Assembly: GCF_022448905.1 (NCBI RefSeq)
Contig: NZ_JAKVCW010000017.1
Coordinates: 1-64,000, forward strand
Length of the DNA stretch: 64,000 nt
Direction of reading: 5' to 3'
Origin: Shimia sp.
GTDB lineage: Bacteria > Pseudomonadota > Alphaproteobacteria > Rhodobacterales > Rhodobacteraceae
Position numbers and translations under genes: made by a program. The first letter of the stretch is position 1; each line of letters starts with the position of its first letter. Below, piece by piece: positions 33,472 through 50,046 of this stretch. The notes below the pieces were generated by a model that was not told the origin of the DNA, searched no databases, and worked only from the letters and a program-made list of their open reading frames with translations.

Positions 33472-34228
33472 GACACAGGTCCTCGGTGGTGGTTTGCCAA
33501 TGGCGATGCGCTACTAGGTCTTTTGTGTAGGAAGCTTGTGGCTGAGACAGCAGGGCTTCAGTTGGACCAGTTTCCACAAGGCGCCCTTCCGCCATCACCG
33601 CGATGTGGCTGGCAAATTGGGCGGCCATGCCAAGGTCATGGGTCACCATCAAAACAGAGATGCCCTGTGCCTTCGAAATCTGGCGCACTTTTTCCAGAAC
33701 CTGCGCGGCAATCAATGGGTCCAAGGCGGAGGTGGGCTCATCCAAAATCAACAGCTTGGGCTGTTCAATCAACGCCATGGCGAGCAGCAGGCGTTGTTGC
33801 ATGCCGCGGCTCCATTGATGTGGATAGCTTTCGTCAAGTGAAGGCAAGCCAAGTGAGGAGATCACTGCGTCTTGCTCGGCAACGCTTAACGGGGATTTTC
33901 GCTTGGCGACCTGTCGCCATTGCCAGCGGAGCCGTCGCAGGGGATCAAACCCATGCGCGGGGCTTTGGGGAACGAGGGCGATCCCTTTGCGATCCGGAGC
34001 ATAGTGCGCGGTGCAATTCCAGTGTTGCCCATCAAAGGTGATATGTCCTGCCGATGGCCGAGCCGGTTTGCGCAGACCCATAATCAACCGCAGCAAAGTC
34101 GACTTACCCGCGCCAGAGCCACCAACAACGGCGAGCCAGTCACCTTCGTTAAGCGTGAGATTGATGTCGTGCAGGACTCCCTGCCTGCCAATCGCGGCAG
34201 ACAGGGCATCAATTGTCAAAAGCGACAT
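33458..34228 (-). CDS. ABC transporter ATP-binding protein, nickel/peptide type (NikD-like)
   Basis: 256 residues from the ATG at 34228, four bases after the binding-protein stop; an in-frame codon at 34264 lies inside the previous gene. Walker A GGSGAGKST near residue 36; signature WSRGMQQRLLLAMAL, a variant common in NikD-type proteins; Walker B LLILDEPTSALD; MVTHDLGM switch. Works with the NikE-like subunit. Confidence 0.87.
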   Translation of the reverse strand: MSLLTIDALSAAIGRQGVLHDINLTLNEGDWLAVVGGSGAGKSTLLRLIMGLRKPARPSAGHITFDGQHWNCTAHYAPDRKGIALVPQSPAHGFDPLRRLRWQWRQVAKRKSPLSVAEQDAVISSLGLPSLDESYPHQWSRGMQQRLLLAMALIEQPKLLILDEPTSALDPLIAAQVLEKVRQISKAQGISVLMVTHDLGMAAQFASHIAVMAEGRLVETGPTEALLSQPQASYTKDLVAHRHWQTTTEDLCRAAE

Positions 34229-34232
34229 GGGT

Positions 34233-35798
34233 TTACTTGGCAATCGCCAACTCCGGTGAGGCAAAATAGGTCTCAGCCGGGTGGATTTGGTAGCCTTCCA
34301 CCTTGCCGTTGCCCACAGACACCTGCGTTTTGTGGAACACGGGGATCACAGGCAGGTCACGGTTGATGATCTCCTGCACTTCCGCGTAGATCGGCTGCCG
34401 TTCCTCTGTTGTGAACAGGCCACGGCCTTTTTCCAAGAGCGCGTCCAGCTCCGGGTTGGAGTAGCCGGACACATTGTAGCTAGCGCCGGTTGCAACCAGC
34501 GTGCTTGGGAAATAGTCCGGGTCGCCTTGTGGTGCGGTGCCCCAGGCTTGCAGGTGCAGATCGATCTCACCCGCTTTCAGCGCGTCGTTGTTTGCGCCGA
34601 ATTCCCCCATTGCGATCTCTGCACCCAGGCCAATCTGCTGCAACAGTACTTGTGAGATTTCCAACGTTGGGCGCAGGGCCGCGCGCCCTTCATAGCTGCG
34701 CAGTTTCAGCACCACGTCTTTGCCGTCCAGTTCGCGAATGCCGTTGCCATCGGAGTCTGTGATACCCGCCGCATCCAACACTTCAGCCGCCTTCGTTGGG
34801 TCGTAAGGCAGAGACAGATCTGCGTTGGCCCATGACGCCATATTGGCAGGGAAAAGGGCGTTTGCCGGGGAGCCGCCCACGCCAACAAGGGCAGCGGCGA
34901 CGATGGTTTCACGGTCCAGCCCAAGCGACACGGCTTCGCGCAACGCGGGGTTTGCCAATGGGCCATCGGTCATGTTGGGTTGGAAAAAGAACAAACGGGT
35001 TGTGGCGCCCGCAAACAATTGCCCTTCACCGCTTTCTTTCAATTTGGCGAAATCCGGCTCGGGATAGTTGGTGACCAGATCCACATCTCCGGCCTGGAGC
35101 GCCAGTGCGGCCACAGACGGATCAGAGATTGCGTCGATCTTCAATTTGTCCAATTTCGGCGCGCCGCCCCAGTAGTCGGCAAAGCCTTTCACCTCATAAG
35201 ATTTCTCCGCCTCTGCCTTCACAAAGACAAACGGGCCCGTGCCGATCAAAGGCAGCGCGTCGGTGCCTTCTTTCATTACGGCGGCAGATGGCTCGGTCAG
35301 GGACCAAAGGAACGCGGAGTTCGGCTCTTTGGTGGTGAAGATTAGCGTTTTGTCGTCAGGTGTCTGAATATCGGCGATGCCCAGAAGCTTGGACAGGCGC
35401 GGGTTGTGTGCCGCATGGCCTTCGACGTCCAGTTTGGCAAACGACTCTTTGACGGATTGTGCGGTCACGGGAGTGCCATCATGGAACGTCACACCGTCAC
35501 GCAAAGTGAGCTGCCATTCGTTCGGGGACAGGTTTTCATAAGACACAGCAAGTCGTGGCTGCATCGACATGTCATAGCCCAGACCAATCAGGGTTTCAGA
35601 TACCCCTGCGCGATTGCTTAACCAACCGTTCTGGCGCGCGCGCGGGTCAGGAATGCTGCTTTTCGGGCCAAATGGCGCAGCAACAACCATGGTGTTTTCT
35701 GCTGCAAGCTGGGTGGCGGAAAGGGAGGCAATGGATGTGGCAATTGCTAATAGAGATACAGACAAAGACCGGCCAAATTTCGGCGATACAATCGACAC
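34233..35798 (-). CDS. ABC transporter substrate-binding protein, nickel/peptide family (SBP_bac_5)
   Basis: About 521 residues from a GTG at 35798 with AAGGGA eight bases upstream; a TTG at 35819 is possible. Signal peptide of about 32 residues. NikA/DppA-type features: ETLIGLGYDMSMQPRLAVSY, LTLRDGVTFHDGTPVTAQSV, LIGTGPFVFV and the late YAEVQEIINRDLPVIPVFHK. First gene of the leftward importer operon. Proximity to a urea transporter suggests nickel for urease, but peptide or metallophore-metal import is equally compatible with the fold; specific metal-ligand residues cannot be assigned. Confidence 0.85.
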   Translation of the reverse strand: MSIVSPKFGRSLSVSLLAIATSIASLSATQLAAENTMVVAAPFGPKSSIPDPRARQNGWLSNRAGVSETLIGLGYDMSMQPRLAVSYENLSPNEWQLTLRDGVTFHDGTPVTAQSVKESFAKLDVEGHAAHNPRLSKLLGIADIQTPDDKTLIFTTKEPNSAFLWSLTEPSAAVMKEGTDALPLIGTGPFVFVKAEAEKSYEVKGFADYWGGAPKLDKLKIDAISDPSVAALALQAGDVDLVTNYPEPDFAKLKESGEGQLFAGATTRLFFFQPNMTDGPLANPALREAVSLGLDRETIVAAALVGVGGSPANALFPANMASWANADLSLPYDPTKAAEVLDAAGITDSDGNGIRELDGKDVVLKLRSYEGRAALRPTLEISQVLLQQIGLGAEIAMGEFGANNDALKAGEIDLHLQAWGTAPQGDPDYFPSTLVATGASYNVSGYSNPELDALLEKGRGLFTTEERQPIYAEVQEIINRDLPVIPVFHKTQVSVGNGKVEGYQIHPAETYFASPELAIAK

Positions 35799-36027: not shown

Positions 36028-36122
36028 TTGATTTCTCTTTAGATCGCCGTTCCATACAGCCGCGCGGGCCTCAGGCTGCGCCCTTGTTCCTAGTTTGATG
36101 TCGAACATCTCATGAGGTCGCT

Positions 36123-37547
36123 GTGAAAATTCGCCATCAACCCGCTGGCTCTGACATGAGCTGGACCGTGCAAGCGCCGCTGACGTTTGAAACGCCAGCA
36201 GGAGAGGCTGTGCGGATTGAGGCGTGGTCGCTGGCAGGGCTGCACTGGCCTGAAGGCGCTGGGGACTGTCCTCAGACGGGCGTGCTGAGTGTGCCATTCC
36301 AAGGTGTGGATGTGCGCTTTCCGGTGCGGCTTACCCAACCAAACGACGCCGGTCTGGTAGAATTTGAAGGCCTCAGCGGACGGCAGCGCGAGACGCTGGC
36401 ATTGTTTTACCGCGCGCTCCTGTCCGGCCAGATGGCCAGCAGTGGGGATGTCATCACCAGCTTGGACACGCCTGTCGACCTGGTTCCGATGAGTGAGACA
36501 GATGAAGAGAAAGAAGCCAGCATTAGGGGGCGCTGGCCCACACCAATCCGCGTGGCTCTGCATGTTTTGATCTATAGCGTGATCGCCCTGACCGTCGCCA
36601 CCATTCTTGGTGCGTCCGTATTCAACAGCGTAACCCGCATCAATGTGCAACATGGGCGGGTGGTCGCGCCAATTGCAGAGCACCTGCCTGCCAGCGAAGG
36701 GTACGTGAAGTCGATTTCCGTGGAACCGGGCGAGGCTGTCGTTGCGGGGCAGGTTCTTGTGCGCCTGAAAGACCCTCAAGCGGAAGGCAAATTGGATTTG
36801 GCGCGGGCGAAGCTGGCGCAGGAACAAAACGAACTGCTCCAAATCAACGAAACACTGGAGGCGTTGATGGCCTATCACACGGTTGCGGCACCGAAGGTGC
36901 GGGCGGCGGTAGTGGGGCAGGCCTATGCGCGGTTTGTTGGGGATCGTGGCTTTGACACTTTGTGGGACCGCTGGCAGGCGATGTTGGGGAAAAACCCGCA
37001 GGCCGCCATTGCGCTGGACCCGTTTGAGTTTGCTGTGACCCGCCTGCAAGAAGTAGAGGCCGCGCAATTGGCGAAAGTGCGCGGTTTGCGGGCAACGCGG
37101 GATGCGCACAAAGCTGCGATCTCGCTGAGCCACGTACGTGCGCCCTCCGATGGCGTGGTGCATGAAGTTCTGGTGCGTAAGGGGCAGCCCTATGACCATG
37201 ATGACATGGCTGTGGTGTTTGAGGGCGATACACCGCGCGTGGCGCAAGGCTGGGTCAGCGAGCGCTTTGCCGAAACGATCTTTGTCGGCATGCCCGCCAG
37301 CATTGGGATCAACACCATGGGGCAAAAACAGACGCTGCCGGGCGTGGTGACGGATGTTCAGGCCGGTGCGGACCCGCGGCGTCCTGGGGAGTTTGGCATC
37401 ATCGTCACCGTCACGCCGCGAGATCTGAGTGCGGCGGATACCAAAGTGGCCTTGCGCCGCGATGCGCCGGTCAACCTTGAGGTGCGACGTCCCTGGGCGC
37501 AGCGGGTGATTGAGCGCGTCAAAACGCTGTGGCCGTCCGATGTATGA
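36123..37547 (+). CDS. alg44: Alg44-like protein: PilZ-like domain, one membrane helix, HlyD-type periplasmic domain
   Basis: 474 residues from a GTG with GAGG five bases upstream. Residues ~10-125 are PilZ-like (VRIEAWSLAGLHW, then a FYRALLSGQM segment), ~143-166 a membrane helix, and ~180-460 a HlyD/biotinyl-lipoyl adaptor fold with a coiled coil. In Pseudomonas, Alg44 binds c-di-GMP through PilZ and activates the Alg8 polymerase. Here the PilZ RxxxR motif is not evident near the N-terminus and the D/NxSxxG motif reads AWSLAG, so c-di-GMP binding may be lost. Overlaps the alg8-like gene by 8 bp, confirming partnership. Confidence 0.82.
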   Translation: MKIRHQPAGSDMSWTVQAPLTFETPAGEAVRIEAWSLAGLHWPEGAGDCPQTGVLSVPFQGVDVRFPVRLTQPNDAGLVEFEGLSGRQRETLALFYRALLSGQMASSGDVITSLDTPVDLVPMSETDEEKEASIRGRWPTPIRVALHVLIYSVIALTVATILGASVFNSVTRINVQHGRVVAPIAEHLPASEGYVKSISVEPGEAVVAGQVLVRLKDPQAEGKLDLARAKLAQEQNELLQINETLEALMAYHTVAAPKVRAAVVGQAYARFVGDRGFDTLWDRWQAMLGKNPQAAIALDPFEFAVTRLQEVEAAQLAKVRGLRATRDAHKAAISLSHVRAPSDGVVHEVLVRKGQPYDHDDMAVVFEGDTPRVAQGWVSERFAETIFVGMPASIGINTMGQKQTLPGVVTDVQAGADPRRPGEFGIIVTVTPRDLSAADTKVALRRDAPVNLEVRRPWAQRVIERVKTLWPSDV

Positions 37548-39126
37548 GCCAGAGTCCGAATATGCCTTTGACAAAGACCTAACAACGCGGTTGCGGGATT
37601 CGCAGACGCCGATCAAACCTTATTGGGCGCGCTGGACCTTTCCGCATCTAATAGCCTTGATGGTGGTGATAAAGGCGCTCTATTGGCTGCTGGCCAATGT
37701 GCCCAACCGGTTCCTTGATCCCAATGCAGGCCATATCACGGTGGTGCTTGGCACTTTGGGTTTGTGGCGGTTTGGCTGGTGGTTCACTCATTCCATCCGC
37801 GCGATGATCTACGCCCGGTGCAAATGGCCGGGTATGCGCCGGGAGGCGGATGCGCTTTGGGAGGCAGGCTGGCGGCCCAAACGGCTGCATATCCAAATGA
37901 CCACCTACTATGAGGAGCCCTCGATCACAAAACGGGTGATCGGGTCCATTCTGGGCCAAATCCGGCGTGAGCTCATACCCACCACGCTCTATATCGGCAC
38001 CGGTAGCGCCTATGACGAAATGATCATCCGGGAGTTTGTCGAGACCTACGCGCAAGACATACCCGACGATCTCGCCGAACTGGTGTTTATCCGTCAAAAC
38101 CAACCGGGCAAGCGCATGGCCATCGGCCTGATCCTGCGCGCAATCAGCCGCACGGCGGCCGATCCTGAGGAGCTGGTGATCTTCATGGATGGGGATGCTT
38201 TGTTTGGCGACGAGGTGCTCAAGAAAACCCTTTCGATGTTTGCCTATGATCCCGAGTTGCAGGCGCTGACCACCGACGAAGAGGTCATTTGCTACGGGCC
38301 GCAGTGGATCGCCAAGTGGCTCGACATGCGTTTTGCCCAACGGAGGCTGGCAATGCAGAGCCACGCCTTGTCCAACCGTGTTCTCACATTGACCGGCCGC
38401 ACGAGCGTGTTTCGCGCCCGCCACATCGTGGACCCGAAGTTCATCCGCGCCATTGAGGCCGATCACCTGAACCACTGGCTCTGGGGTCGGTTCCGTTTCT
38501 TGTCTGGGGATGACAAATCAACCTGGTACCGCTTGCTGAGTGTGGGGGCGAAGATGACCTATGTGCCGGATGCAACGGTCTACACCATTGAGGTGATCAA
38601 AGAGAACGGGCTGATGCGGATGATCCAGAACTTCCGCCGCTGGTCTGGCAACATGTTGCGCAATGGCAGTCGTGCCATTGCGTTGGGCCCACGCCGGATG
38701 CCGTTCTTCATCTGGTGGTGTGTGGTGGACCAACGCATCGCCATGTGGACCATGATGGTCAGTCCGGTCATGGCGGTTTTGGGCAGTATGGTGGCCCCCG
38801 GATATTTCTGGAACTGCCTGATTTGGGTGTTGTTTTCCCGCGTGGTGCTGTGCTTGTTTCTGATGGGATACAGTCGCCGCGCGGACATGACTTGGCCGTT
38901 TATTCTCTATCTGAATCAGGTGATTAACGCGTCGGTGAAGATTTACATGATCTTTCACCTGTCCAAACAGAAATGGTCCAATCGCGGCAATCAAAGCGCG
39001 GGAGAAGGCACGAGTATGCTGGATCGTTTGCGCAATGGATTCGCGCTGTTCCAATTGGTCACAGCCACGTCCGCCTTTCTCACCCTGTTGATGCTCTATG
39101 TCGGGCTGATCGACCTGCCCCTTTGA
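37540..39126 (+). CDS. alg8: Alg8-like family 2 glycosyltransferase (mannuronan synthase type)
   Basis: 528 residues from the ATG at 37540, inside the end of alg44. Membrane helices flank a GT2 domain: two near residues 25-80 and several from about 385 to the end. Catalytic features: FMDGDALF near residue 217, TTDEEV, SGDDKSTW near residue 325 and the RRWSGN acceptor-site motif near residue 365, all in the Alg8 arrangement. It should polymerise mannuronic acid from GDP-mannuronate at the inner membrane. Only the precursor genes algA and algD accompany it; the periplasmic and outer-membrane alginate genes are absent, so the mature polymer is uncertain. Confidence 0.87.
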   Translation: MYEPESEYAFDKDLTTRLRDSQTPIKPYWARWTFPHLIALMVVIKALYWLLANVPNRFLDPNAGHITVVLGTLGLWRFGWWFTHSIRAMIYARCKWPGMRREADALWEAGWRPKRLHIQMTTYYEEPSITKRVIGSILGQIRRELIPTTLYIGTGSAYDEMIIREFVETYAQDIPDDLAELVFIRQNQPGKRMAIGLILRAISRTAADPEELVIFMDGDALFGDEVLKKTLSMFAYDPELQALTTDEEVICYGPQWIAKWLDMRFAQRRLAMQSHALSNRVLTLTGRTSVFRARHIVDPKFIRAIEADHLNHWLWGRFRFLSGDDKSTWYRLLSVGAKMTYVPDATVYTIEVIKENGLMRMIQNFRRWSGNMLRNGSRAIALGPRRMPFFIWWCVVDQRIAMWTMMVSPVMAVLGSMVAPGYFWNCLIWVLFSRVVLCLFLMGYSRRADMTWPFILYLNQVINASVKIYMIFHLSKQKWSNRGNQSAGEGTSMLDRLRNGFALFQLVTATSAFLTLLMLYVGLIDLPL

Positions 39127-39228
39127 GGCACACCTATCCTTTTGCGCATCCGCATACCCCTCCGACATTCCAACTGGCGTCCTTCGCACAGCTAGATTGT
39201 TCTCAACACACAACAAAAGGATGTATTC

Positions 39229-40644
39229 ATGATCACGCCTGTCATTCTCGCCGGAGGCTCCGGTACCCGTCTGTGGCCTGTATCGCGCAAGAGTTTCCCA
39301 AAGCAGTTTGCCAATCTGCTTGATGGTCCAAGCCTGTTTCAACGCACAGTCGACAGGGTGATGGCTCCTGGATTTGCCGAGCCCACGGTGATCACCGGTG
39401 AGGATTACCGCTTCATTGCGCAGAAGCAGATGACGGAGATGCAAGCCATCTGCGGTGCACTGATTGTGGAGCCGGAGGGGCGCAACACCGCACCGGCCGT
39501 TTTGACAGCCGCGTTGGTACACAAGGACACGCCGGACAAGGTATTGCTTGTGGTGCCCAGCGACCATCAGATTACTGACGACCGCACTTTTCGCCAGGTG
39601 ATTGCAAAGGCGGCGCGGGTGGCAGAGAAAGGTTTGATCGTGACCTTGGGTATCAAACCGGATCACGCCGCTACAGGCTTTGGGTATCTGCGTGTCGAGG
39701 GTGGTAATGATGACGCGCTCATGATCTCTCAGTTTGCGGAAAAACCGGACGCTGACACCGCCGCCGCAATGCTGGAGGAGGGCAACTGGCTGTGGAATGC
39801 GGGCATGTTCTTGTTCCGCGTCGATACGGCTCTGAAGGCTTTCGAAACCCATGCGCCAGATTTGATTGGCCCGACGGAGGCGGCGTTGGCGCTGGGTGCG
39901 GAAGATTTCGGGTTCACCCGTCTGAACGCCGAAGCCTACAAACGTTGCGCGGATATCTCCTTTGATCATGCGATTATGGAAAATATCCAGGAATGTGCAG
40001 CCCTGCCGCTCACCTGCGGCTGGTCGGATCTGGGCAGCTGGCAAGCGCTCAAGGACATTGGCGCGCCAAACAGCCAAGACACGGTGACGGCTGGTAATGC
40101 CACCGCAATTGACTGTGAAGGCAGCTTGCTGAAGTCCGAAAACCCGGATGTGAAGCTTGTGGGGTTGGGCCTCAAAAACGTCATGGCCGTGGCCACCGAT
40201 GATGGCATCCTGATCGCCGACCGGTCTGAAAGTGCCAATGTCGGCCAAGTGGTGGAAACGCTGCGCGCCGAAGGGGTCCCGCAAGCTGATGGGTTCAAAC
40301 GCTGCTACCGCCCATGGGGGTACTACGAAACGCTGTCTCTCGGCCCGAGGTTCCAAGTGAAATGCCTCATGGTGGAGCCGGGCGCCAAGCTGTCCCTGCA
40401 AAGTCATGTGCATCGCGCAGAGCACTGGGTAGTGGTCAGTGGCTCGGCAAAAGTGACGGTGAATGACGACGTCAAACTGCTGACGGAAAACGAGAGCACC
40501 TACATCCCATTGGGCGCCGTGCACCGGCTCGAAAACCCCGGAAAGCTGCCGCTGCATCTGATTGAGGTCCAGTCTGGTTGCTACCTCGGTGAAGACGACA
40601 TCATTCGCTACGAAGACATCTATCACCGCGAAGAACTGGCCTGA
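39229..40644 (+). CDS. algA: Mannose-1-phosphate guanylyltransferase / mannose-6-phosphate isomerase
   Basis: 471 residues, bifunctional type II enzyme. Nucleotidyltransferase domain with GGSGTRLWPVSRKSFPKQF at residues 8-26 and the FAEKP site near residue 170; C-terminal cupin isomerase domain from about residue 350 (RPWGYYE, then SLQSHVHRAEHWVVVSG and HRLENPG). It supplies GDP-mannose to AlgD. Lies 102 bp after alg8 and is followed by a strong terminator. Confidence 0.93.
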   Translation: MITPVILAGGSGTRLWPVSRKSFPKQFANLLDGPSLFQRTVDRVMAPGFAEPTVITGEDYRFIAQKQMTEMQAICGALIVEPEGRNTAPAVLTAALVHKDTPDKVLLVVPSDHQITDDRTFRQVIAKAARVAEKGLIVTLGIKPDHAATGFGYLRVEGGNDDALMISQFAEKPDADTAAAMLEEGNWLWNAGMFLFRVDTALKAFETHAPDLIGPTEAALALGAEDFGFTRLNAEAYKRCADISFDHAIMENIQECAALPLTCGWSDLGSWQALKDIGAPNSQDTVTAGNATAIDCEGSLLKSENPDVKLVGLGLKNVMAVATDDGILIADRSESANVGQVVETLRAEGVPQADGFKRCYRPWGYYETLSLGPRFQVKCLMVEPGAKLSLQSHVHRAEHWVVVSGSAKVTVNDDVKLLTENESTYIPLGAVHRLENPGKLPLHLIEVQSGCYLGEDDIIRYEDIYHREELA

Positions 40645-40700
40645 TCCTTTCCCCCGGATCGTTCGCCGCTTTATAGCCCACCCAGCTTGGCGAACGCGGC

Positions 40701-40734
40701 AAACCTGCATGGAACTCCATGCAGGTTTTGTTGT
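40701..40734 (+). terminator. Rho-independent terminator after algA
   Basis: AAACCTGCATGG pairs perfectly with CCATGCAGGTTT across a 4-nt loop and is followed by TTGTTGTTTT. It splits alg44-alg8-algA from algD and the RTX gene, implying a second promoter in 40735-40865. Confidence 0.9.
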
Positions 40735-40865
40735 TTTGAAGGCTCCCAAAAGGGGGACACTCGAAAGGATAGTGGGCTGACCCTCGGGGCGTTCAGGCTG
40801 ACCTAATTCCAGAAAATTTGATGAAAAAAATCCTCTAAGATGACTTCAAGAAGGAGTTCGACATT

Positions 40866-42260
40866 ATGGAATACCGCAGGTTTTCACCGCAGGACTTAGA
40901 GATTGTCGTCCCGGTCCCACGTCAAAAATCCAGCATCAGTGTTGTGGGTCTTGGCTATGTCGGCGCGGTTTCAACCGCATGCCTGGCGTCGCTGGGCCAC
41001 CGGGTGATTGGCGTGGATTTGGACCAGACCAAAGTGAATCAGATTGGCCTCGGCCAAAGCCCCATCCACGAAGATCGGCTTACCGAAACCCTAACCGCGG
41101 GTGTTGAAGACGGCTTGATCAGCGCCACAGATGATCTGCGTCAAGCGGTCATCGACACGGATGTGACCTTTGTGTCTGTAGGAACCCCTACCGCTGCGGA
41201 CGGGGGCTGTGATCACAACTTCATCAAGCTGGCGTGTGATGCGATGGCGCGAGGGCTGCGAGATAAAGAGGGCTTTCACGTCTTCGCCATGCGCTGCTCC
41301 ATACCGCCGGGCACCACGATGAAGGTTATGGCACCCATTCTGGAGGCCGTATCGGGCAAAGCGGTAGGTCGTGATTTTGGCATCTGCTTCAACCCGGAGT
41401 TCCTGCGCGAAGGTGTGGCGATCGATGATTTCCACAACCCACCCAAAACCGTGATCGGGACCACTGATTTCGCCACGGCAGAGATCATGCGCCGTATTTA
41501 TGCGCCGGTGGACGACAAGCCCATTCTGACCACAATCGAGGTGGCCGAGACCATCAAATATGTCGACAATGTATGGCACGCCACCAAAGTGTGTTTTGCC
41601 AATGAAGTTGGGCGTTTGTGCAAGCCCTTGGGCGTGGACAGCCACGCGGTGATGGAGATCTTCACACAGGATCAAAAACTTAACCTGTCCGCCTATTACC
41701 TGAAGCCGGGCTTTGCCTATGGCGGCTCCTGCCTGCCCAAAGAGGTGCGCGCGGTACAGCATGTGGCCAGCACCCTTGGGGTCGATCTTCCGATGATCGG
41801 CGCACTGGAACAGTCTAACGCTGAGCAAATCCAACAGGCTGTGGAGATGGTGCAGAAAACCGGCGCCAAGCGGGTGGGAATTCTGGGCCTGGCGTTCAAA
41901 CCAGGCACAGATGACCTGCGGGAGAGCCCCATTCTGGAAGCCATGGCGACGCTGCAACAACAAGGCGTTGAGCTGCTCGTCCATGATGAGGCCGTGACCA
42001 AAGACACCCCTCTGGACGGGCTGGCGAGCTACACCAAGTACGGCAGCCAGGGTCTGACAAAACTGGCAGAAGGCCTCTCCGACATGCTGCGTGACGATGT
42101 CGAGAGCGTCATGGTAGCGGCCGACGTGGTGATCGTGTGCCACGCCAGCGACACTTACCGAGACGCCGTGCAGCGACACAAGAATGTGGCGGTCGTGGAT
42201 GTGGTCCGGCTGTTTGACAGCGCCCCACAGGATCTCGCGATTAACGGCATTGGCTGGTGA
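40866..42260 (+). CDS. algD: GDP-mannose 6-dehydrogenase
   Basis: 464 residues, UDP-glucose/GDP-mannose dehydrogenase family, with an extra ~25-residue N-terminus before the Rossmann motif VVGLGYVGAVSTACLASLGH. The catalytic cysteine is near residue 289 in GGSCLPKEV; the preceding QKLNLSAYYLKPGFAYGG and the later FKPGTDDLRESP segment follow the AlgD pattern closely. It oxidises GDP-mannose to GDP-mannuronate, the monomer for the Alg8-like synthase. AAGGAG lies upstream of the ATG. Forms a second transcription unit with the RTX gene 44 bp downstream. Confidence 0.9.
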   Translation: MEYRRFSPQDLEIVVPVPRQKSSISVVGLGYVGAVSTACLASLGHRVIGVDLDQTKVNQIGLGQSPIHEDRLTETLTAGVEDGLISATDDLRQAVIDTDVTFVSVGTPTAADGGCDHNFIKLACDAMARGLRDKEGFHVFAMRCSIPPGTTMKVMAPILEAVSGKAVGRDFGICFNPEFLREGVAIDDFHNPPKTVIGTTDFATAEIMRRIYAPVDDKPILTTIEVAETIKYVDNVWHATKVCFANEVGRLCKPLGVDSHAVMEIFTQDQKLNLSAYYLKPGFAYGGSCLPKEVRAVQHVASTLGVDLPMIGALEQSNAEQIQQAVEMVQKTGAKRVGILGLAFKPGTDDLRESPILEAMATLQQQGVELLVHDEAVTKDTPLDGLASYTKYGSQGLTKLAEGLSDMLRDDVESVMVAADVVIVCHASDTYRDAVQRHKNVAVVDVVRLFDSAPQDLAINGIGW

Positions 42261-42304
42261 TCGGCCAAAGTCACAACCTGTTCAGACATATGTGAGGACA
42301 TGAC

Positions 42305-44920
42305 ATGCCCACAAGCAACCTAAATCTCATCACTGGAACGGGCCTCTCCGACGTGCTCGATGGGACTGGCACAGGAGACTTGATCGTTGGCTTGTCCGGA
42401 GACGACAGCATCACCAGCGGCGCGGGCAACGACGCCCTGTATGGCGACTATGAACAGGCCAATCTGTTGGAAGGCACTGACAACGCAACCGGGTTTACCG
42501 ACTACGCCAACAGCGGAAACTGGACGGTGTCTGCGTTGGATGGCGGCCATCAGCAGATGAGCCAAACCCTCACCACCGAAGTCGGAGGCGTTTACAATCT
42601 GTCCTTCGACCTCGCCGCCAATTTTGCGGCGGGACAGCCGGGCGCCACAGTAGAAGTGCTCATCAACGGCGCGATTGTGGGGACCTATTCCACGGAAAGC
42701 GGCGCTTACAATGCCTTTGACACAAGCTTCACTGCCATTGGCGGTGAAACCGAGATCACCTTGCGCTCGATTGACGGTCCAAGTTCGGGGCCATCGATAG
42801 ATACATCCGGTCCAATCTTCCACTATGCGCGCGAGATGCAGATCGGTGGGCAGACAGTGGAAGTGGCCGCATTTGCCGACGGTCAGGCCAACCTCTATCA
42901 GGTACTGAACGGCACGCTGCATGTGTTTGATGTGGAAACTCAGACCTATGAGGTCGCGGGTGCAGCGGGCACAGTGAACGTGAACTCCATGGGCTACAAC
43001 GCGCAAGACGATCTTCTGTATGCCATCGCGGTGGGAACCGGTGTTGATAGCCTCGGCAACGCGGTGCAGCGCTCTGACTTGATCATGCTGGATGCAGAGG
43101 GCAACAGTTACCGGATTGGCGAAACGCCTTATCGGTCCTGGACCGGCGACTTTGATGATCAGGGCAACCTTTGGTCGTTTCAATCCAGCATGGACCGGAT
43201 TGCGGTGATCGATGTGGATCAGCTAGACGCCAATGGAAACCCGGTGGTGACAGTGCACAAGCTCCCCAGCGCGCTTGTCACCCACCGGGTTTATGACGTG
43301 GCCTTTGATGCCAAAACTCAAAGCTTCTACGGCGTGGCGCGTCCGCCATCCGAAGGAGCAGACACCATTCTTTTGGTGGCCGATATTTCCAGTGGCGTAC
43401 CGGAGTTCACCTTGGTGCCGGTGACCTCGACGGTTGTGGACGGCGTCACGCTGGACGGCGCGCCGGCCGTGACCTTTGGCGCGGCGATCATGGACGCGGA
43501 CGGCAACCTCTTTGTTGGTGGCAACTCCGGCGATCACGACATGAACAACGCCACGGGCAACAGTGGCGGCATCTACCAAGTGGTGATCGATCCCGCGACC
43601 GGCGAAGCCAGCCTTGTGTTGCTGACCGAAGCGCCCAGTTCTTACTCTAACGATGGCGCGGCTGATCCAACCGCGGAAAGTCCCTTTGTCGAGGTTGATT
43701 TGTCGTCCTCTGTTTTGATCCGTGATTTGAGCTTGGTTGCGACCACGGAGGGCGAACTGACCTACGACGACTCGCTCGAAGGCAACGGTGGCAATGACAC
43801 GCTGGACGGTGGCATTGGCGAAGATGACCTGATTGGCGGCGGTCTTGGTGACACGCTTCTGGGTGGCGATGGCGATGACTATTTGCACGGCGGCGCAGGT
43901 CCGGATGGCAACAGCACCATTGTCTCTCACTATGACAGTGACGGGTTGCGTTATGACCAATTTGGTAACCTTCTGCCGGAAAATGATGACTTTCTGCTGG
44001 GCGGTGAAGGCAGCGACACGCTGGAAGGGTCTGCAGGTCATGACACGTTGGACGGCGGCGAGGCCGCGGACGTTCTGAGAGGGGGATCGGGGTCTGACAT
44101 GCTCTTTGGCAGCGCCGGTGACGATACGCTGTCGGGCGGTGGGCAAGACGATGTGCTGTCTGGAGGCAGCGGTGCAGATATATTGCGCGGGGGCTCTGGA
44201 GATGACGACCTCTCTGGAGGTTCTTTTGATGACGTTCTTAACGGCGGTTCCGGCAATGACAGCCTGGCTGGCGATGAAGGCGCTGATGAGCTAACAGGTG
44301 GCAGCGGCAACGACACGCTGAACGGCGGTAACGGTGCCGACCAGTTGGTTGGTGGCTCCGGGCAAGATGCGCTTACAGGTGGCGCAGGCGATGACGATTT
44401 GCGTGGCGGCTCCGGCAATGATGCGCTGGATGGCGGCTTGGGAAGCGACAATCTCCGTGGCGGCGCGAACGATGATGTGCTTAACGGAGGCGAGGGGCGC
44501 GACAGTCTCCGAGGCGACCGAGGCAATGACGAGCTGTCGGGTGGCGCAGGCCGCGATTATCTCAGCGGTGCGATTGGCGATGACACGCTGGATGGCGGCG
44601 CAGACGCTGATCGCCTGTATTTGGGGGCAGGGAACGACGTGGCCACTGGCGGCATCGGTGCTGACACCTTCATATTCCGCAACGACGATCTGGACGGGTC
44701 GCAAGACCTCATTCTGGACTATTCCGTTGCCGAAGGGGACCGGCTGCACCTTCGCGGTTTGGACCTTGGGGGCAGCGAAAGCGAGTACTCTGATTGGTTT
44801 GGCAACCATGTCAGCGTCAGCGGTGAAGACGTTTCCATCCAACTCGGAAACAACACAACGCTTCTGTTGCAGGACACTGCGGAAGACTTTGCACTGCTCT
44901 CAGACAGCTTTGTGTTCTAA
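42305..44920 (+). CDS. Large RTX calcium-binding protein, probably secreted
   Basis: 871 very acidic residues, no Sec signal. A short RTX block at residues ~10-50; a beta-rich jelly-roll-like domain at ~55-165 (NWTVSALDGG to GETEITLRSID); a propeller-like region at ~170-460 with repeated short YQV/YAI blade segments; about 30 GGxGxDxLx nonapeptides at ~490-790; and a C-terminal TFIFRNDDLDGSQDLILDY-type cap ending in a hydrophobic VF, as in type I secretion substrates. No epimerase or lyase domain was recognised. No type I secretion ABC gene is nearby. Its place after algD suggests it binds or cross-links the acidic polymer with calcium. Confidence 0.85.
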   Translation: MPTSNLNLITGTGLSDVLDGTGTGDLIVGLSGDDSITSGAGNDALYGDYEQANLLEGTDNATGFTDYANSGNWTVSALDGGHQQMSQTLTTEVGGVYNLSFDLAANFAAGQPGATVEVLINGAIVGTYSTESGAYNAFDTSFTAIGGETEITLRSIDGPSSGPSIDTSGPIFHYAREMQIGGQTVEVAAFADGQANLYQVLNGTLHVFDVETQTYEVAGAAGTVNVNSMGYNAQDDLLYAIAVGTGVDSLGNAVQRSDLIMLDAEGNSYRIGETPYRSWTGDFDDQGNLWSFQSSMDRIAVIDVDQLDANGNPVVTVHKLPSALVTHRVYDVAFDAKTQSFYGVARPPSEGADTILLVADISSGVPEFTLVPVTSTVVDGVTLDGAPAVTFGAAIMDADGNLFVGGNSGDHDMNNATGNSGGIYQVVIDPATGEASLVLLTEAPSSYSNDGAADPTAESPFVEVDLSSSVLIRDLSLVATTEGELTYDDSLEGNGGNDTLDGGIGEDDLIGGGLGDTLLGGDGDDYLHGGAGPDGNSTIVSHYDSDGLRYDQFGNLLPENDDFLLGGEGSDTLEGSAGHDTLDGGEAADVLRGGSGSDMLFGSAGDDTLSGGGQDDVLSGGSGADILRGGSGDDDLSGGSFDDVLNGGSGNDSLAGDEGADELTGGSGNDTLNGGNGADQLVGGSGQDALTGGAGDDDLRGGSGNDALDGGLGSDNLRGGANDDVLNGGEGRDSLRGDRGNDELSGGAGRDYLSGAIGDDTLDGGADADRLYLGAGNDVATGGIGADTFIFRNDDLDGSQDLILDYSVAEGDRLHLRGLDLGGSESEYSDWFGNHVSVSGEDVSIQLGNNTTLLLQDTAEDFALLSDSFVF
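43781..44680 (+). repeat. RTX nonapeptide repeat coding region
   Basis: About 30 degenerate 27-bp units encode GGxGxDxLx calcium-binding turns, interrupted once near 43905-43980 by a ~30-residue spacer rich in Asp and Tyr. Confidence 0.9.
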
Positions 44921-44932
44921 CGAAACCAAGGC

Positions 44933-44963
44933 GAGGCGGGCTTATTCAAAGCCTGCCTCTTTT
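44933..44963 (+). terminator. Terminator after the RTX gene, overlapping the response-regulator 3' end
   Basis: GAGGCGGGCTT pairs with AAGCCTGCCTC (one G-U pair), followed by TTTT. It includes the last codons and stop of the convergent LuxR-type gene. Confidence 0.7.
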
Positions 44964-45658
44964 GCGATCAAGGCCGCCTGCGTGCGGTTTTTTGCGTTGA
45001 GTTTTTTGCACAGGGTGCGCACGTGCAGCTTGATGGTCACTTCTTGCAAATCGAGATCCCGAGCGATTTCCTTGTTGGATTGCCCTTTGCACAGACCGGT
45101 AAGAACTTGCTTCTCACGCTGGCTCAGCTGCTTCTCAAAATCGCTTTCTTCCGCTTCGCCGCCGGCAGAAAGCACACTGGCTGGTACAAAGGTTTCGCCA
45201 GCGATCATAAAACGCACCGCGTTGACCAAAGACTTGGCTCCCATGGTTTTGGGCAAAAAACCAATGGCCCCGGCTTCCAAGGCGTCTTGCGCCACTTTGT
45301 TTGGGGCAGTGCCGCTGACAATGGCAAAAGCCTGATCCGGGTAGGCCGCCACGGCGTCGATCAGGCCTTGAAGCCCGTTCATGCCCGGCATGCTGAAGTC
45401 CAGCAGAACCAGATCAAATGGACCTTTTTGGTCCAGAAGCTTCATGGCCTCAAAATAATCTGATCCGGCCACAACTGTGGCACGGCCTTCAGAGGTGATG
45501 TAGGCAGAGATGGTTTCGCGAACCATTCCGTGGTCATCAGCTAACAAAATACGCATAGAAACGGGGCGTCCTACTCTTGGGTTCTGGGAGGACCCTACGA
45601 GGCCCTGCGCGTGTAAACCAGTCGTGACACCCTGACTTTGCCGTAAATCTTGCGACAT
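44942..45658 (-). CDS. NarL/FixJ-family response regulator (REC plus LuxR HTH)
   Basis: 238 residues from an ATG at 45658, which has AAAGGAG six bases upstream. This adds a 34-residue N-terminal extension before the receiver domain (MRILLADDHGMVRETI); an internal ATG at 45556 has no ribosome site. Phosphoacceptor Asp is near residue 87 in LVLLDFSMPGMNG. The LuxR HTH at the C-terminus has SQREKQVLTGLCKGQSNKEIA. Likely output of the hybrid kinase encoded at 46449 and candidate regulator of the neighbouring polysaccharide genes through the palindromes at 36012 and 45795. Confidence 0.88.
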   Translation of the reverse strand: MSQDLRQSQGVTTGLHAQGLVGSSQNPRVGRPVSMRILLADDHGMVRETISAYITSEGRATVVAGSDYFEAMKLLDQKGPFDLVLLDFSMPGMNGLQGLIDAVAAYPDQAFAIVSGTAPNKVAQDALEAGAIGFLPKTMGAKSLVNAVRFMIAGETFVPASVLSAGGEAEESDFEKQLSQREKQVLTGLCKGQSNKEIARDLDLQEVTIKLHVRTLCKKLNAKNRTQAALIAKEAGFE

Positions 45659-45664
45659 ACCTAG

Positions 45665-45671
45665 CTCCTTT
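45665..45671 (-). promoter_or_regulatory. Ribosome binding site fixing the response-regulator start
   Basis: AAAGGAG on the minus strand, six bases before the ATG at 45658, against no such site for the internal ATG at 45556 that would give a standard-length regulator. Confidence 0.8.
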
Positions 45672-45794
45672 AAAACCATGTGTCCTGGTGTGCCGATGCT
45701 GACACCAACAGGATAACTGCAGGTAAATTCGCATAGTTTGAGTAAAATCCGTTGGGGCATCAGATGACCGCCAACTAGCGAAGGGTCAGACAAA

Positions 45795-45890: not shown

Positions 45891-46412
45891 ATGCAACGTT
45901 TCAAAAAACTGCTCGCTGCCCCCACCACACCAAGCTTTCTGACCGGCGCCATCCTGCTCGCCATGGTGGCATCACAGGCCATGGCCGACACTTTGTTGAC
46001 GGTCAGCGGAGATGTTTCAGCGACAGATGCGGGACTGACCTGGCAATTCGAAGAAAGCGACCTGCGCGCCCTGCCAAAAGTGCAGTTTGAGACAGACACC
46101 ATTTGGACCGAAGGAACCCAGGTTTTTGAAGGCGTCTCCTTGTCCGCACTGCTTACCCATGTGGGTGCTAGCGACGGCAATCTACTGGCCACAGCCGCTA
46201 ATGATTACACCGTGTCGATCCCGACGTCTGATGCGGTAGAGAATGGTCCGATAATCGCCTATCTGCGCAATGGCGAAAAAATGACCTTGCGTGACAAGGG
46301 GCCATTGTGGATCGTTTACCCATTCGCAGGCAACGACGCCTATAAAACAGAAGAGTATTATTCCCGCAGCATTTGGCAGCTTGATCGAATTGAAGTTGTT
46401 GCCAATGAGTAA
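45891..46412 (+). CDS. Exported SUOX-fold (molybdopterin-oxidoreductase-like) small protein
   Basis: 173 residues. Signal peptide of about 32 residues (cleavage near AMA-D), then a reduced sulfite-oxidase-type domain (LTVSGDV, DLRALPKVQFET, FEGVSLSALLTHVG, WIVYPFAGN). It lacks the pterin-binding cysteine seen in real sulfite oxidases: no cysteine occurs in the mature part. So it is probably not catalytic. GGAG precedes the ATG. It is 36 bp upstream of the hybrid kinase, and such small proteins often sit beside sensor kinases, so a periplasmic ligand-binding accessory is likely (inference). Confidence 0.8.
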   Translation: MQRFKKLLAAPTTPSFLTGAILLAMVASQAMADTLLTVSGDVSATDAGLTWQFEESDLRALPKVQFETDTIWTEGTQVFEGVSLSALLTHVGASDGNLLATAANDYTVSIPTSDAVENGPIIAYLRNGEKMTLRDKGPLWIVYPFAGNDAYKTEEYYSRSIWQLDRIEVVANE

Positions 46413-46448: not shown

Positions 46449-48938
46449 ATGAATGGCAGATGGCCGTTTGTCCTCTTCGCAGGCTTGCTATTGGCAAGCT
46501 TGCTTTTGGTTGGTGGCTTGGGGCGTACGGTGTTCACGGACCTGCGGGTTCTGTCGACCGCGCAAAACGATGACGTGAGTTGGACGATGTCGCAGCTTGA
46601 GGTGGAGCTGTTGCGGCTGCAAAGCGCGGTGCTGTCTGCGCGGTCCAATGAGAACGCTGGGCTGGGCGAAGTCCGCAAACGCTTTGACATCTTCTACAGC
46701 CGGATCACAACGACCCGACAAAGTGCCTTCTTTGCGCCGATGGTGGAGGCCCCAACGGTGGCAGGAAGCACGGTTGCCGCCACACAGTTTTTGGACCGTA
46801 GTATCCCTTTGATCGACGGCCCGGATGAAACGCTCCAGGCTTACCTGCCCACACTGTTGTCGGACATTGATGCGTTGCGCCCAAAAGTGCGGGCCTTGGC
46901 GCTGGCAGGAGTCGACCACTTTACAACGCAGGAAACCGCAGATCGCAACCGGTTGTCGGTCACCTTACAGCGGCTCGCCTATGGTCTGACCGCGCTGATT
47001 GCGGTGCTGTTTTTGTCGCTGGCCAGTTTGATCCAGTTGTATCGCCAAGGGCAAAGGGCCTCACAGAAGAGAGAGCAGGCGCGGGCCCGGTTTGAGGCTG
47101 TTGTGTCGTCATCGCTGAATGCGGTTCTGGTTGCGGACACAGAAGGTCATATTGTGGAGTTCAACGGCGCGGCGGAAACCGTGTTTGGCTACACGCGTGA
47201 TGAGGCGTTGGGCGCGGATTTGGCGGAGCTGATTGTGCCGGAAGAGCTGCGAGAAGCACATCGGGCGGGGATGAAACGGTTTGTGGAAACCGGCGAACGC
47301 AAAGTTATCGGGGCAGGGCGCGTGCGCCTGAAAGGGATGCGCAAAGGCGGCGAGGTCTTTCCGGTGGAGCTGTCTATCTCCCTGTCGGAGGCCAGTGGCG
47401 AAACGGTGTTTGTGTCGTTCCTGCGGGACATCACCAAAGAGCTGAAAGCTGAAGAGGATTTAAAAGACGCGCTGGAAAAAGCGCAGGTGGGCGAAAAGGC
47501 GAAGTCCAACCTGCTGACCGTCATGAGCCATGAAATGCGCACACCGCTGAATGGTATTTTGGGGTCACTTGAGTTGATGGATCAGTCAGACCTGAGTGAC
47601 GCGCAAAAACGGCATTTGGCGTCGATTGGTATTTCCGGCGAGTTGCTGCTGTCCCATGTCAACGACGTTTTGGATTTGTCCTCTTTGACGTCTGAGGCTG
47701 AGGCTCCCAAACATGCGCTCTTCAACCTCACAGATTTGGTGCAGGACGTGGTGGACAGCCTGCAAAGCAACGCTTCCCAGCATGCAAACGCGCTTTCAGT
47801 AGACTTCCTGACGGAGGATCTGCAAACCGTGAGTGGGGATCGTGGCTCCTTGCAGCGCTGCCTGGTGAACTTGGTTGGCAATGCGCTGAAATTCACCCGT
47901 GAGGGCAGCGTCGCAATAGAGGTTGAACGAGTGTCTTCTGGCGATCTGGTCGAGTTCAGAGTGGCCGACACCGGGGTTGGTATTGCGCCGGAAAACCTCA
48001 GCCGGATTTTTGAAGAGTTTGTCACGATCGACACCGCCTTTGATCGGGAGAATTCCGGCACAGGGCTCGGGCTGGCCATCACCAAACGCTTGATCGAGCG
48101 CAACGGAGGCGAATTGGAGGCTGACAGCCTGTTGGGAGAGGGCAGCCTGTTTACCTTCCGCTTGCCTTTGCCAACCACGACGGATGTGGCGGACCTTCAA
48201 ACGCATGCGACCGCGCATTCCTTACGGGACTTGCCTGCAGGGTTTCGGGCTCTGGTGGTGGATGACAACGACATCAACCGCGAAATCCTCACAGACATTG
48301 TCCGCGATCTGGGGGGCGTCACGCAGGAAGCTAGTAACGGCTTTGAGGCAATAGAAACCTGCGAGACTTCGGGTTTCGACGTTTTGCTTCTGGACATCAG
48401 CATGCCAGGTATCGACGGGTTGGAAACGCTGAAGCGTATTCGAGAAGGCACGTCACCAAATGTCGCGACACCGGCCGTGGCTGTCACCGCACATGCGGCG
48501 CAAAAGGACCATGAGGCCATTCTGGCGCAAGATTTTCAAACGCTGATCCTAAAGCCGGTGCGACGGGCCGCGATCCATGGTGCTTTGGCCGATGTGTTCG
48601 GTGTGGGAGATGGCGTCGAAGCGTTTACAGCCGCGACGCAAGACGCCCCAGAGTTTCTGAAGCAATTTGGCCTCGAGCGCTATACAGAAGCCGTACAGGA
48701 AACTCAGGCAGAGATTTCACAGTTCCTGACCGGGAAGCAAGTCACCGACCCGTTGACGGAAGCGGAACGAGAAGAAGCGCACCGTTTGTCTGGGTCTGCC
48801 GCAGTCTTGGGGTGGATGGAGCTTTGGGGCGCGCTGCAAGCGGTGCAAAACGCGCCTGAAGACCGCTGGGGGGCACATTTGAACCACTTGCAGTCTGAAT
48901 TCGATCGTGTGTTCCCAGATCAAATACATCAGCGCTAA
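46449..48938 (+). CDS. Hybrid sensor histidine kinase with PAS, receiver and Hpt domains
   Basis: 829 residues: membrane helices at ~6-24 and ~175-197 bracket a periplasmic sensor of about 150 residues; PAS at ~215-330; HisKA with His near 361 (VMSHEMRTPLNG); HATPase with FRVADTGVGIAPENL and GTGLGLAI; receiver with Asp near 649 (DVLLLDISMPGIDG); Hpt with His near 778 (AHRLSGSAAVLG). The full phosphorelay leads outward from its own Hpt, probably to the LuxR-type regulator at 44942. The SUOX-fold protein just upstream may be its periplasmic partner. Confidence 0.92.
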   Translation: MNGRWPFVLFAGLLLASLLLVGGLGRTVFTDLRVLSTAQNDDVSWTMSQLEVELLRLQSAVLSARSNENAGLGEVRKRFDIFYSRITTTRQSAFFAPMVEAPTVAGSTVAATQFLDRSIPLIDGPDETLQAYLPTLLSDIDALRPKVRALALAGVDHFTTQETADRNRLSVTLQRLAYGLTALIAVLFLSLASLIQLYRQGQRASQKREQARARFEAVVSSSLNAVLVADTEGHIVEFNGAAETVFGYTRDEALGADLAELIVPEELREAHRAGMKRFVETGERKVIGAGRVRLKGMRKGGEVFPVELSISLSEASGETVFVSFLRDITKELKAEEDLKDALEKAQVGEKAKSNLLTVMSHEMRTPLNGILGSLELMDQSDLSDAQKRHLASIGISGELLLSHVNDVLDLSSLTSEAEAPKHALFNLTDLVQDVVDSLQSNASQHANALSVDFLTEDLQTVSGDRGSLQRCLVNLVGNALKFTREGSVAIEVERVSSGDLVEFRVADTGVGIAPENLSRIFEEFVTIDTAFDRENSGTGLGLAITKRLIERNGGELEADSLLGEGSLFTFRLPLPTTTDVADLQTHATAHSLRDLPAGFRALVVDDNDINREILTDIVRDLGGVTQEASNGFEAIETCETSGFDVLLLDISMPGIDGLETLKRIREGTSPNVATPAVAVTAHAAQKDHEAILAQDFQTLILKPVRRAAIHGALADVFGVGDGVEAFTAATQDAPEFLKQFGLERYTEAVQETQAEISQFLTGKQVTDPLTEAEREEAHRLSGSAAVLGWMELWGALQAVQNAPEDRWGAHLNHLQSEFDRVFPDQIHQR

Positions 48939-48987: not shown

Positions 48988-50046
48988 TTACAATTCAGCG
49001 CGAACCTGCGCCAGTTCTCCTGCGACAGCTTTGATGCTCTTGGATTTTAAAGGCCCATAGAGGCACGCGCTTTGCTGGTTGGTATCGCGGCAAAAGGCGT
49101 TGATGGACCGGATCAAAGGGCGGTTCATATAGGGGCTGGCGCGCCCAACGGCATAGCCAAGATCGCGTAGCTCCATCTGCACAATCCGCACATATGCGTT
49201 TTTGTTGATTTTGGCCGCCACCGAGAGCCCGCGTGCAAACACATCATTTGGCGCCGCGCGCACAATCTCTTCAGAGGCACGCCAGAACTGAGCCGGGTTT
49301 TGATCTCTTGCCAGATACAACCCTTCTTCGACTTGGATTTTTGCACGCAATCCTTCGGTTTGCAGAAGCCGGTCACGGGTGGCGAGCGTGCCACGTGCAT
49401 GTCCAACAACCCGATAGTATTTCAGCAAGGCTTCTGCCGCTTTGGCGTCGCCATCCGCATGACGCTTGTGCAGCTGGTCCAGAGTGTCGGTCACATCAAC
49501 CCGTTGCGAGAGATCCCGCGTCAGGGCGTCTAGTAACAGCATCTGACCATCGCGGCTGTCTGCCTTTGCCAACTTGACCAGTGTTGGAATACCCAAATGG
49601 GGATCGGACAAGGGGCCCAGGCGGCCCGTCGCATGGGCCCAGGCAAGAACCGCCTCACCTTGTTGCAGACCTAGGGCTGACGCGGCCAACAAGCTCTGCT
49701 GCGCAGCCTCGTAGTCTTGCGACGAAAGCTGTACTTTGCCCAAGGACACAAGGGACTTGCTTTGTCCCAGCTCAACGGCTTTGTCATAGTAAGCGATGGC
49801 CTGCGCGGTGTCTTGGTTTCCGCCGATCCCCTTGAAACGAAAGTAGCCCAACCGATCACAGGCCCGCGCATAGCCGTCGGTACAAATCGACTGCAAGGTG
49901 CGGATGGCCTCTTTCGGCGCATCTGAGAGAGATGCCATCGCCTCGTTGTAGAGCGCTTTAGGGGAAACCTCTGCATGGGCTTGCGGCAGGCTGACCACCC
50001 CGCCAGCGACACAGCCTAGCGCGAGACATTTGAGCATGTGTAACAT
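48988..50046 (-). CDS. Exported Sel1-like repeat protein, possible AlgK-like scaffold
   Basis: 352 residues. Signal peptide of about 25 residues (cleavage near AHA-E). Sel1/TPR-type helical repeats follow (YARACDRLGYFRFKGIGG, then AIAYYDKAVELGQSKSLVSLG). The C-terminal ~60 residues, from LRDLGYAVGRASPYMNRPLI, resemble a peptidoglycan-binding-like fold with two cysteines (FCRD, SACLYG). Pseudomonas AlgK is also a Sel1-repeat periplasmic protein, so this could do a comparable job for the alginate-like system 3 kb away, but general envelope roles are equally possible. No lipobox of good quality. Confidence 0.75.
   Translation of the reverse strand: MLHMLKCLALGCVAGGVVSLPQAHAEVSPKALYNEAMASLSDAPKEAIRTLQSICTDGYARACDRLGYFRFKGIGGNQDTAQAIAYYDKAVELGQSKSLVSLGKVQLSSQDYEAAQQSLLAASALGLQQGEAVLAWAHATGRLGPLSDPHLGIPTLVKLAKADSRDGQMLLLDALTRDLSQRVDVTDTLDQLHKRHADGDAKAAEALLKYYRVVGHARGTLATRDRLLQTEGLRAKIQVEEGLYLARDQNPAQFWRASEEIVRAAPNDVFARGLSVAAKINKNAYVRIVQMELRDLGYAVGRASPYMNRPLIRSINAFCRDTNQQSACLYGPLKSKSIKAVAGELAQVRAEL

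Follow-up and report, generated by a model that had tools for sequence, protein, structure and literature searches.

A Shimia locus that is probably half of a split, RTX-associated alginate-type system

In Pseudomonas and Azotobacter, the alginate genes are found in the order algD-alg8-alg44-algK-algE-algG-algX-algL-algI-J-F-algA. For Pseudomonas aeruginosa, two papers report that alginate leaves through AlgE (PMC4118822) and that its production needs cyclic di-GMP (c-di-GMP) on Alg44, with R17 and R21 as the arginines concerned (PMC8461298). Atypical alginate operons without algKE or acetylation genes have been reported as well (Bundalovic-Torma 2020, PMC7112194, S5 Fig iii), in a survey that counts 64 alginate operons in 1733 genomes; the absence of algKE alone is therefore not new. 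Here, we analyzed a 64,000-nucleotide stretch of DNA from Shimia sp. (contig NZ_JAKVCW010000017.1, positions 1 to 64,000; hereafter the window), in which alg44, alg8, manC/algA, algD and a gene for an RTX protein form five co-directional open reading frames (ORFs) at 36123-44920. An earlier note on the window described the first four as a minimal alginate-like locus; all are present, and the RTX gene lies unnamed inside the same span. Two loci probably share a divergent system for O-acetylated polymannuronate, of which this one would supply the synthesis genes; a phosphorelay, rather than c-di-GMP, probably controls the system, and a secreted, Ca2+-binding RTX protein would be its partner.

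The five-gene order was found again in many genomes and, because it recurs in this way, the cluster is not a product of chance. The Alg44-like co-polymerase (36123..37547, + strand) was recognized by Pfam HlyD, an AlphaFold2 (AF2) model, Foldseek and motif counts, and the Alg8-like synthase of glycosyltransferase family 2 (GT2; 37537..39126, +, mechanical ORF start 37510) by Pfam Glyco_tranf_2_3, its relatives, a tree and aligned catalytic motifs. ManC/AlgA (39229..40644, +), a mannose-1-phosphate guanylyltransferase / mannose-6-phosphate isomerase, matches TIGR01479 with 559 bits (cut-off 373). AlgD (40866..42260, +) has 380 bits to a solved GDP-mannose 6-dehydrogenase (1mfz), compared to 262 bits to the best UDP-glucose dehydrogenase, and its motif LNLSxYYLKPGFAYGGSCLPK matches a Pseudomonas-type AlgD (L246) and differs from the equivalent in L236. 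That ManC and AlgD would make GDP-mannuronate is strongly supported by these family matches; the earlier note was right that the alg44, alg8, algA and algD core should make and polymerize this precursor. Two ORFs of 743 and 508 amino acids (aa) run antisense over the alg genes on the minus strand (38518-40749 and 36090-37616); they were taken as mechanical and rejected as genes, with the family matches lying on the plus-strand frames.

A search for Alg8 in 295 genomes of the family (E 1e-30) found matches in 41, comprising 20 window-type genomes (group A, the own genome and 19 others, with Alg8 62-81% identical) and 21 others at 28-40% identity. Alg8 proteins that are 94-95% identical occur in Shimia sagamensis, two Shimia metagenome-assembled genomes (MAGs) and two further Rhodobacteraceae, and 24 of 398 genomes drawn from the phylum have a match at E 1e-40. 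Another set of Rhodobacteraceae Alg8 clusters (L051-L068) is referred to below as group B. Gene neighborhoods were compared over 80 named loci. In 59 of these (the uncut loci), alg8 is flanked by 7 kb or more in either direction, and the other 21, which are cut, were set aside; neighbors were labeled by phmmer hits of at least 35 bits within 10 kb of alg8. In the uncut loci, these labels comprise Alg44 (58), AlgD (54), histidine kinase (44), LuxR (42), ManC (40) and a molybdopterin protein (33), followed by AlgI, AlgJ and AlgX (14 each), AlgF (12) and AlgE (5); since a label is a hit within 10 kb, the kinase and LuxR counts may include unrelated genes. Five of the 40 loci with a manC label hold only an ORF of 133-161 aa (L149, L150, L153, L162 and L183). 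The two short manC-position ORFs that were scanned (L043:8147-8602 and L035:10940-11371) consist of the mannose-6-phosphate isomerase cupin domain alone, and in such loci the guanylyltransferase would therefore need another source. Within the AlgD motif, the Arg or Lys of Pseudomonas-type LNLS(R/K)YY is replaced by Ala, Ser or Pro in group A and by Glu in L195, a replacement that may be relevant to substrate handling.

Modification genes had been described as missing. This holds at the locus, where no blastp label for algF, algI, algJ, algX, algG or a lyase was obtained within window positions 30001-56000, but not in the genome, which has an algF-algI-algJ-algX operon on a separate contig (G000:C12, ~426328-430619, minus strand), with two adjacent AlgX/AlgJ-family copies. 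The DTH and GTS/SSFS motifs are visible in AlgJ/AlgX. The AlgX/AlgJ family is present in 11 of the 18 window-type genomes searched (G139 and G180 were outside that search), and all of algF, algI, algJ and algX are near alg8 in 12 of the 59 uncut loci. In Thalassovita, Flavimaricola, Loktanella, Cognatiyoonia and Tritonibacter these genes immediately precede alg44; in Halocynthiibacter, Sulfitobacter and Roseobacter isolates, the kinase and molybdopterin genes stand between the acetylation module and alg44. A phosphomannomutase gene adjoins algF in L037 (by Pfam) or alg44 in L160, and is two genes from alg44 in L170. Since the acetylation operon is on C12, and since AlgE, AlgG and AlgL were not found in the own genome by the searches described below, the window locus appears to be one half of a split system, with no recognized porin for the outer-membrane step. 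A full alginate operon elsewhere, which would have spoken against a minimal system, was not found either, as the genome has one Alg8 match at E 1e-30.

In the system that we propose, ManC and AlgD would supply GDP-mannuronate, and Alg8 with Alg44, judging from their homologs, would polymerize and translocate the chain, which AlgF, AlgI, AlgJ and AlgX from the second locus would O-acetylate in the periplasm. In place of the lost c-di-GMP site of Alg44, control may rest with the LuxR-type regulator encoded alongside, together with a hybrid kinase and a sensor-like protein. The RTX protein, probably secreted by a type I route, would bind Ca2+ and decorate or cross-link the polymer outside the cell. 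The outer-membrane exit would be something other than a recognized AlgE; a TolC-type channel docked by the helical hairpin of Alg44 is the most concrete candidate, and is a weakly supported guess.

The AF2 model of Alg44 (predicted local distance difference test, pLDDT, 86.9) combines a PilZ-like barrel with a HlyD-type adaptor and a single long helix that presumably crosses the membrane. The HlyD part is also matched by Pfam; the barrel is seen in the model only, with no Pfam match to PilZ in the window protein. The adaptor, whose best Foldseek matches are MacA and EmrA, includes a helical hairpin at residues 218-334, whose two helices span 36 and 35 residues. In an alignment of 54 Alg44 proteins (the window protein and 53 of 65 length-filtered ones), the c-di-GMP arginines (RxxxR) are absent in 51, including the window protein, which has D and T at these positions; they are kept in two Bermanella rows and one Roseibium row. 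Nine of the 54 keep the D/NxSxxG motif intact, and group B rows, inspected by eye, are also without RxxxR. The stretch between the lipoyl halves has a median of 122 residues (range 93-164), compared to some 40 by eye in a Pseudomonas-type Alg44.

Export genes had likewise been thought missing. This stands for the own genome, where AlgE was found neither by Pfam PF13372 nor by an alignment of two relatives' AlgE, but relatives sometimes carry AlgE: 6 of the 80 named loci have an AlgE-family porin at the head of the acetylation module; both porins tested (L044 and L100) have PF13372 at 62-63 bits. The alignment matches 2 of the 20 window-type genomes, both of them sources of the query alignment, and none of the named controls matching PF13372 was seen to be a Pseudomonas, so that the AlgE searches are weakly controlled. 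At E 0.001, the own genome has no match to one AlgG-like query and none to AlgL (PF05426 only), consistent with the earlier claim that both are missing. Only two of the 20 window-type genomes, G072 and G264, match AlgG and AlgL strongly, and both have a second alg8 cluster; the AlgG-like matches of G040 (52 bits) and G234 (28 bits) are weak. In the own genome, three ORFs are of TolC type (six half-matches), and three matches to Poly_export were obtained.

AlgK is built of Sel1-type repeats, and a Sel1-repeat protein at 48988..50046 (minus strand; Pfam Sel1 28 bits, below the cut-off of 30.7) is a candidate periplasmic scaffold in AlgK's place. Its homologs adjoin algF or alg44 in L095, L040 and L170, and it is strong in 7 of the 20 window-type genomes, three of which are rows of the query alignment itself. 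Comparisons gave no support for homology to AlgK, with PDB matches mostly to generic Sel1/TPR repeats and an hhalign probability of 5.8% against an AlgK-position protein; the window Sel1 alignment gave 85.8% over ~100 columns against a Roseibium Sel1 protein. Of the algE, algK and algX homologs that the earlier note proposed to look for, the AlgX/AlgJ family is on C12 and AlgE was not found in the own genome. The Sel1 protein and the RTX gene, the latter one of the most constant partners in the clade, had both been passed over in that note.

These results bear on whether the window simply encodes an ordinary Pseudomonas-type alginate system, whose exporter and epimerase are present and too divergent for the searches. 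The retention of AlgE in a few relatives, the Sel1-repeat protein in the window and near algF or alg44 in relatives, and the weak control of the AlgE searches would all fit such a system. However, the own genome gave no AlgE match with PF13372 or with the alignment built from close relatives, AlgG is strong only in the two genomes with a second cluster (and weak in G040 and G234) with AlgL confined to the same two, the RxxxR of Alg44 is lost and the Sel1 alignment reaches only the 5.8% given above; taken together, an ordinary system appears unlikely.

A tree of Alg8 was built from 57 chosen proteins, 32 of them from group A, with Pseudomonas-type rows recognized by gene order. A branch with support 100/99 sets group A apart from other Alg8. 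A Roseibium MAG and, from the gammaproteobacteria, two Bermanella MAGs are on the group A side, and the opposite side holds the Pseudomonas-type rows together with 12 of the 13 rows of group B. The root is unsure because it is set by the thirteenth group B row, the very long L069. No match was obtained with phmmer for Alg8 against the PDB, and the Alg8 residues H323, T457 and E460 of PMC8461298 could not be placed by number, as the Pseudomonas-type rows carry other residues at those positions. Such a separate clade could use GDP-mannuronate and make a different uronate polymer, with another linkage or as a copolymer, and the long branch, the identity of ~33% to Pseudomonas-type Alg8 and the manC label in only 40 of the 59 uncut loci (with a 133-161 aa ORF alone in 5 of these) would be in line with this. 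By contrast, the GT2 motifs DGD, DHLxHW and RW are common to group A and Pseudomonas-type Alg8 in the alignment, and alginate-type acetylation genes accompany Alg8 in many genomes; a different polymer is therefore more doubtful still than an ordinary alginate.

The RTX protein (42305..44920, +; 871 aa), presumably Ca2+-binding, was identified by Pfam, an AF2 model (pLDDT 90.8), Foldseek matches to propellers and RTX rolls, conservation and co-occurrence. It has a jelly-roll-like domain (74-190), a propeller-like domain (197-480, DUF6923) and an RTX roll (490-790), followed by a C-terminal segment. The GGxGxDxUx repeats that form the beta-roll were found both by Pfam and in the model, and binding of Ca2+ is inferred from these repeats. 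As an AlgE-type C5-epimerase the protein was rejected, since neither a Pfam scan nor the model revealed a catalytic A-module (beta-helix). Counting ORFs with four or more GGxGxD that lie no further than 6.5 kb from alg8, 54 of the 59 uncut group A loci have one (the exceptions being L156, L170, L177, L185 and L186), compared to 3 of the 20 loci examined from other Alg8 groups (out of 24 such matches). The RTX gene is a hallmark of the Alg8 clade, among its most constant partners alongside alg44 and algD. In loci L194, L182, L184, L189 and L193, which appear to correspond to the five window-type genomes that lack a strong RTX match (listed below), the RTX ORFs have 275-545 aa.

The N-terminal 430 residues match 31 of the 295 genomes, and this half scores 436-931 bits in 14 genomes, with the next at 384; the threshold for a strong match (at least 430 bits) was chosen after seeing this gap. 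All 14, and also G180 with a copy divided between two contigs, belong to the 20 window-type genomes, an overlap with a probability of 2.6e-21 under random draw that is uncorrected for kinship and for the after-the-fact threshold. In the Bermanella MAGs, the RTX gene is followed by genes for a type I ABC exporter and HlyD; in the own genome, an RTX paralog whose N-terminal half is 46% identical (G000:C2:133500-153400; L256 5043-10910) is likewise followed by ABC and HlyD genes. The RTX protein is therefore likely to be secreted through a type I system, and the ABC/HlyD genes beside the paralog could possibly export the window protein. In the window, the ABC genes at 32689-34264 adjoin a peptide-type binding protein and permeases; no dedicated search for an RTX-cognate ABC/HlyD pair was made there. 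That the RTX gene is an unrelated neighbor in a genome rich in such genes (at least 20 RTX-bearing ORFs with 150 of 241 candidates scored, one of 2292 aa on C11) is highly improbable, given that it stays near alg8 in 54 of the 59 uncut loci, and in the gammaproteobacterium Bermanella as well, and that G053 and G270 have a strong match even though the gene is not adjacent there.

Several observations weigh against the split polymannuronate system proposed here, or narrow it. Acetylation is not universal, because 7 of the 18 window-type genomes searched (G053, G078, G215, G234, G040, G132 and G252) have no AlgJ/AlgX-family match. The RTX N-terminal domain is not exclusive to the alginate-type system, since weaker homologs occur in 16 other genomes, most without an Alg8 match at E 1e-30, and five window-type genomes (G215, G234, G040, G132 and G252) have no strong RTX match. 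The ABC domain beside the RTX paralog is split over two ORFs (L256 7337-8485 and 6356-7294), so that this gene looks broken or badly assembled. The TolC-docking pattern is not above chance in the Alg44 hairpin, with 7 of 54 proteins compared to 6.4 expected from shuffles, and five aligned AlgE-bearing loci carry the hairpin too (126 residues); the hairpin, therefore, did not arise to replace AlgE. Finally, the loci are not independent, as several are from Shimia and Ruegeria and the named loci overlap the genome set. For a stronger proposal, in which the locus represents a distinct class where Alg44 serves as a TolC-type export adaptor without AlgE, a phosphorelay acts instead of c-di-GMP, and gelling of an all-mannuronate polymer depends not on AlgG epimerization but on a dedicated RTX propeller protein that binds Ca2+ and is secreted by a type I route, we would give a tentative and rather low estimate.

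Downstream of the RTX gene are a LuxR-type response regulator (44942..45793, minus strand, true start probably near 45556; Pfam REC and GerE), a small protein with a molybdopterin-binding domain (45891..46412, +; Pfam Oxidored_molyb), a putative sensor partner of the kinase, and a hybrid histidine kinase with PAS-HisKA-HATPase-REC-Hpt architecture (46449..48938, +; by Pfam, Hpt below cut-off); their labels occur in 42, 33 and 44 of the 59 uncut loci, respectively. Another gene family was seen at 11 loci. Ten of these (L147, L148, L149, L151, L154, L160, L161, L166, L191 and L194) have it next to the hybrid kinase, in the position that the molybdopterin protein takes in other loci, and the eleventh is L170. 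The one member tested, from L148, is a FIST-domain protein. NosP-type FIST proteins sense nitric oxide, and the FIST-type gene in this place hints at a swap of sensor input.

A conserved lineage that is mostly without AlgE and the c-di-GMP site, yet retains the synthase and, in many cases, genes for acetylation, would reveal the parts that alginate-type synthesis truly requires. The recurrent RTX partner suggests a protein-based organization of a Ca2+-binding polyuronate that may lack guluronate blocks, and the finding bears on the slime of marine roseobacters. In the literature covered, mostly as titles and abstract openings and without subscription papers or supplements, no paper on this roseobacter locus, the RTX link or the clade was apparent.

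Among related clusters, those of group B share AlgD, Alg8 and AlgA with the window, and most have AlgX-family genes and some AlgI. They differ in a NosD-type AlgG-like gene and, often, a Sel1 protein of 909-946 aa and a polysaccharide lyase gene; their Alg8 is nearer to that of Pseudomonas than group A's, and RTX near alg8 is found in the 3 of 20 loci mentioned above. Their gene order is algD-alg8-alg44-algA-algG(NosD)-...-algX, with the long Sel1 protein in 9 loci and a polysaccharide lyase family gene in 10, and G072 and G264 hold both alginate-type systems. The long Sel1 protein occupies a possible AlgK plus AlgE position; an AlgE-like C-terminal half was rejected (hhalign 0.1%). Two further clusters, L243 (G478) and L245 (G474), have the order algD-algA-alg8-...-algI-algJ-algF-algX, with no algG or algL label appearing, and may be polymannuronate-only variants; G478 has a second, Pseudomonas-type operon (L244).

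With the Azotobacter AlgE-type C5-epimerases, the window RTX protein shares RTX repeats and remote matches to their R-modules; by comparison, it has jelly-roll- and propeller-like parts and no recognized A-module. For the atypical operons of PMC7112194, the accessible part of that paper names no RTX partner, roseobacters or PilZ loss. With the Pseudomonas and Azotobacter system, the Shimia system has AlgD, Alg8, the Alg44 fold and AlgA in common, along with AlgF, AlgI, AlgJ and AlgX at an unlinked position. It differs in that no AlgE, AlgG or AlgL was found in the own genome, the group A Alg8 falls in a separate clade, the own genes are spread over two loci, the window Alg44 is without the c-di-GMP arginines and has a long hairpin, and an RTX partner and two-component genes are present. 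Relative to known alginate systems, this one is a variant that is split and coupled to an RTX protein, with a degenerate c-di-GMP site and no recognized porin.

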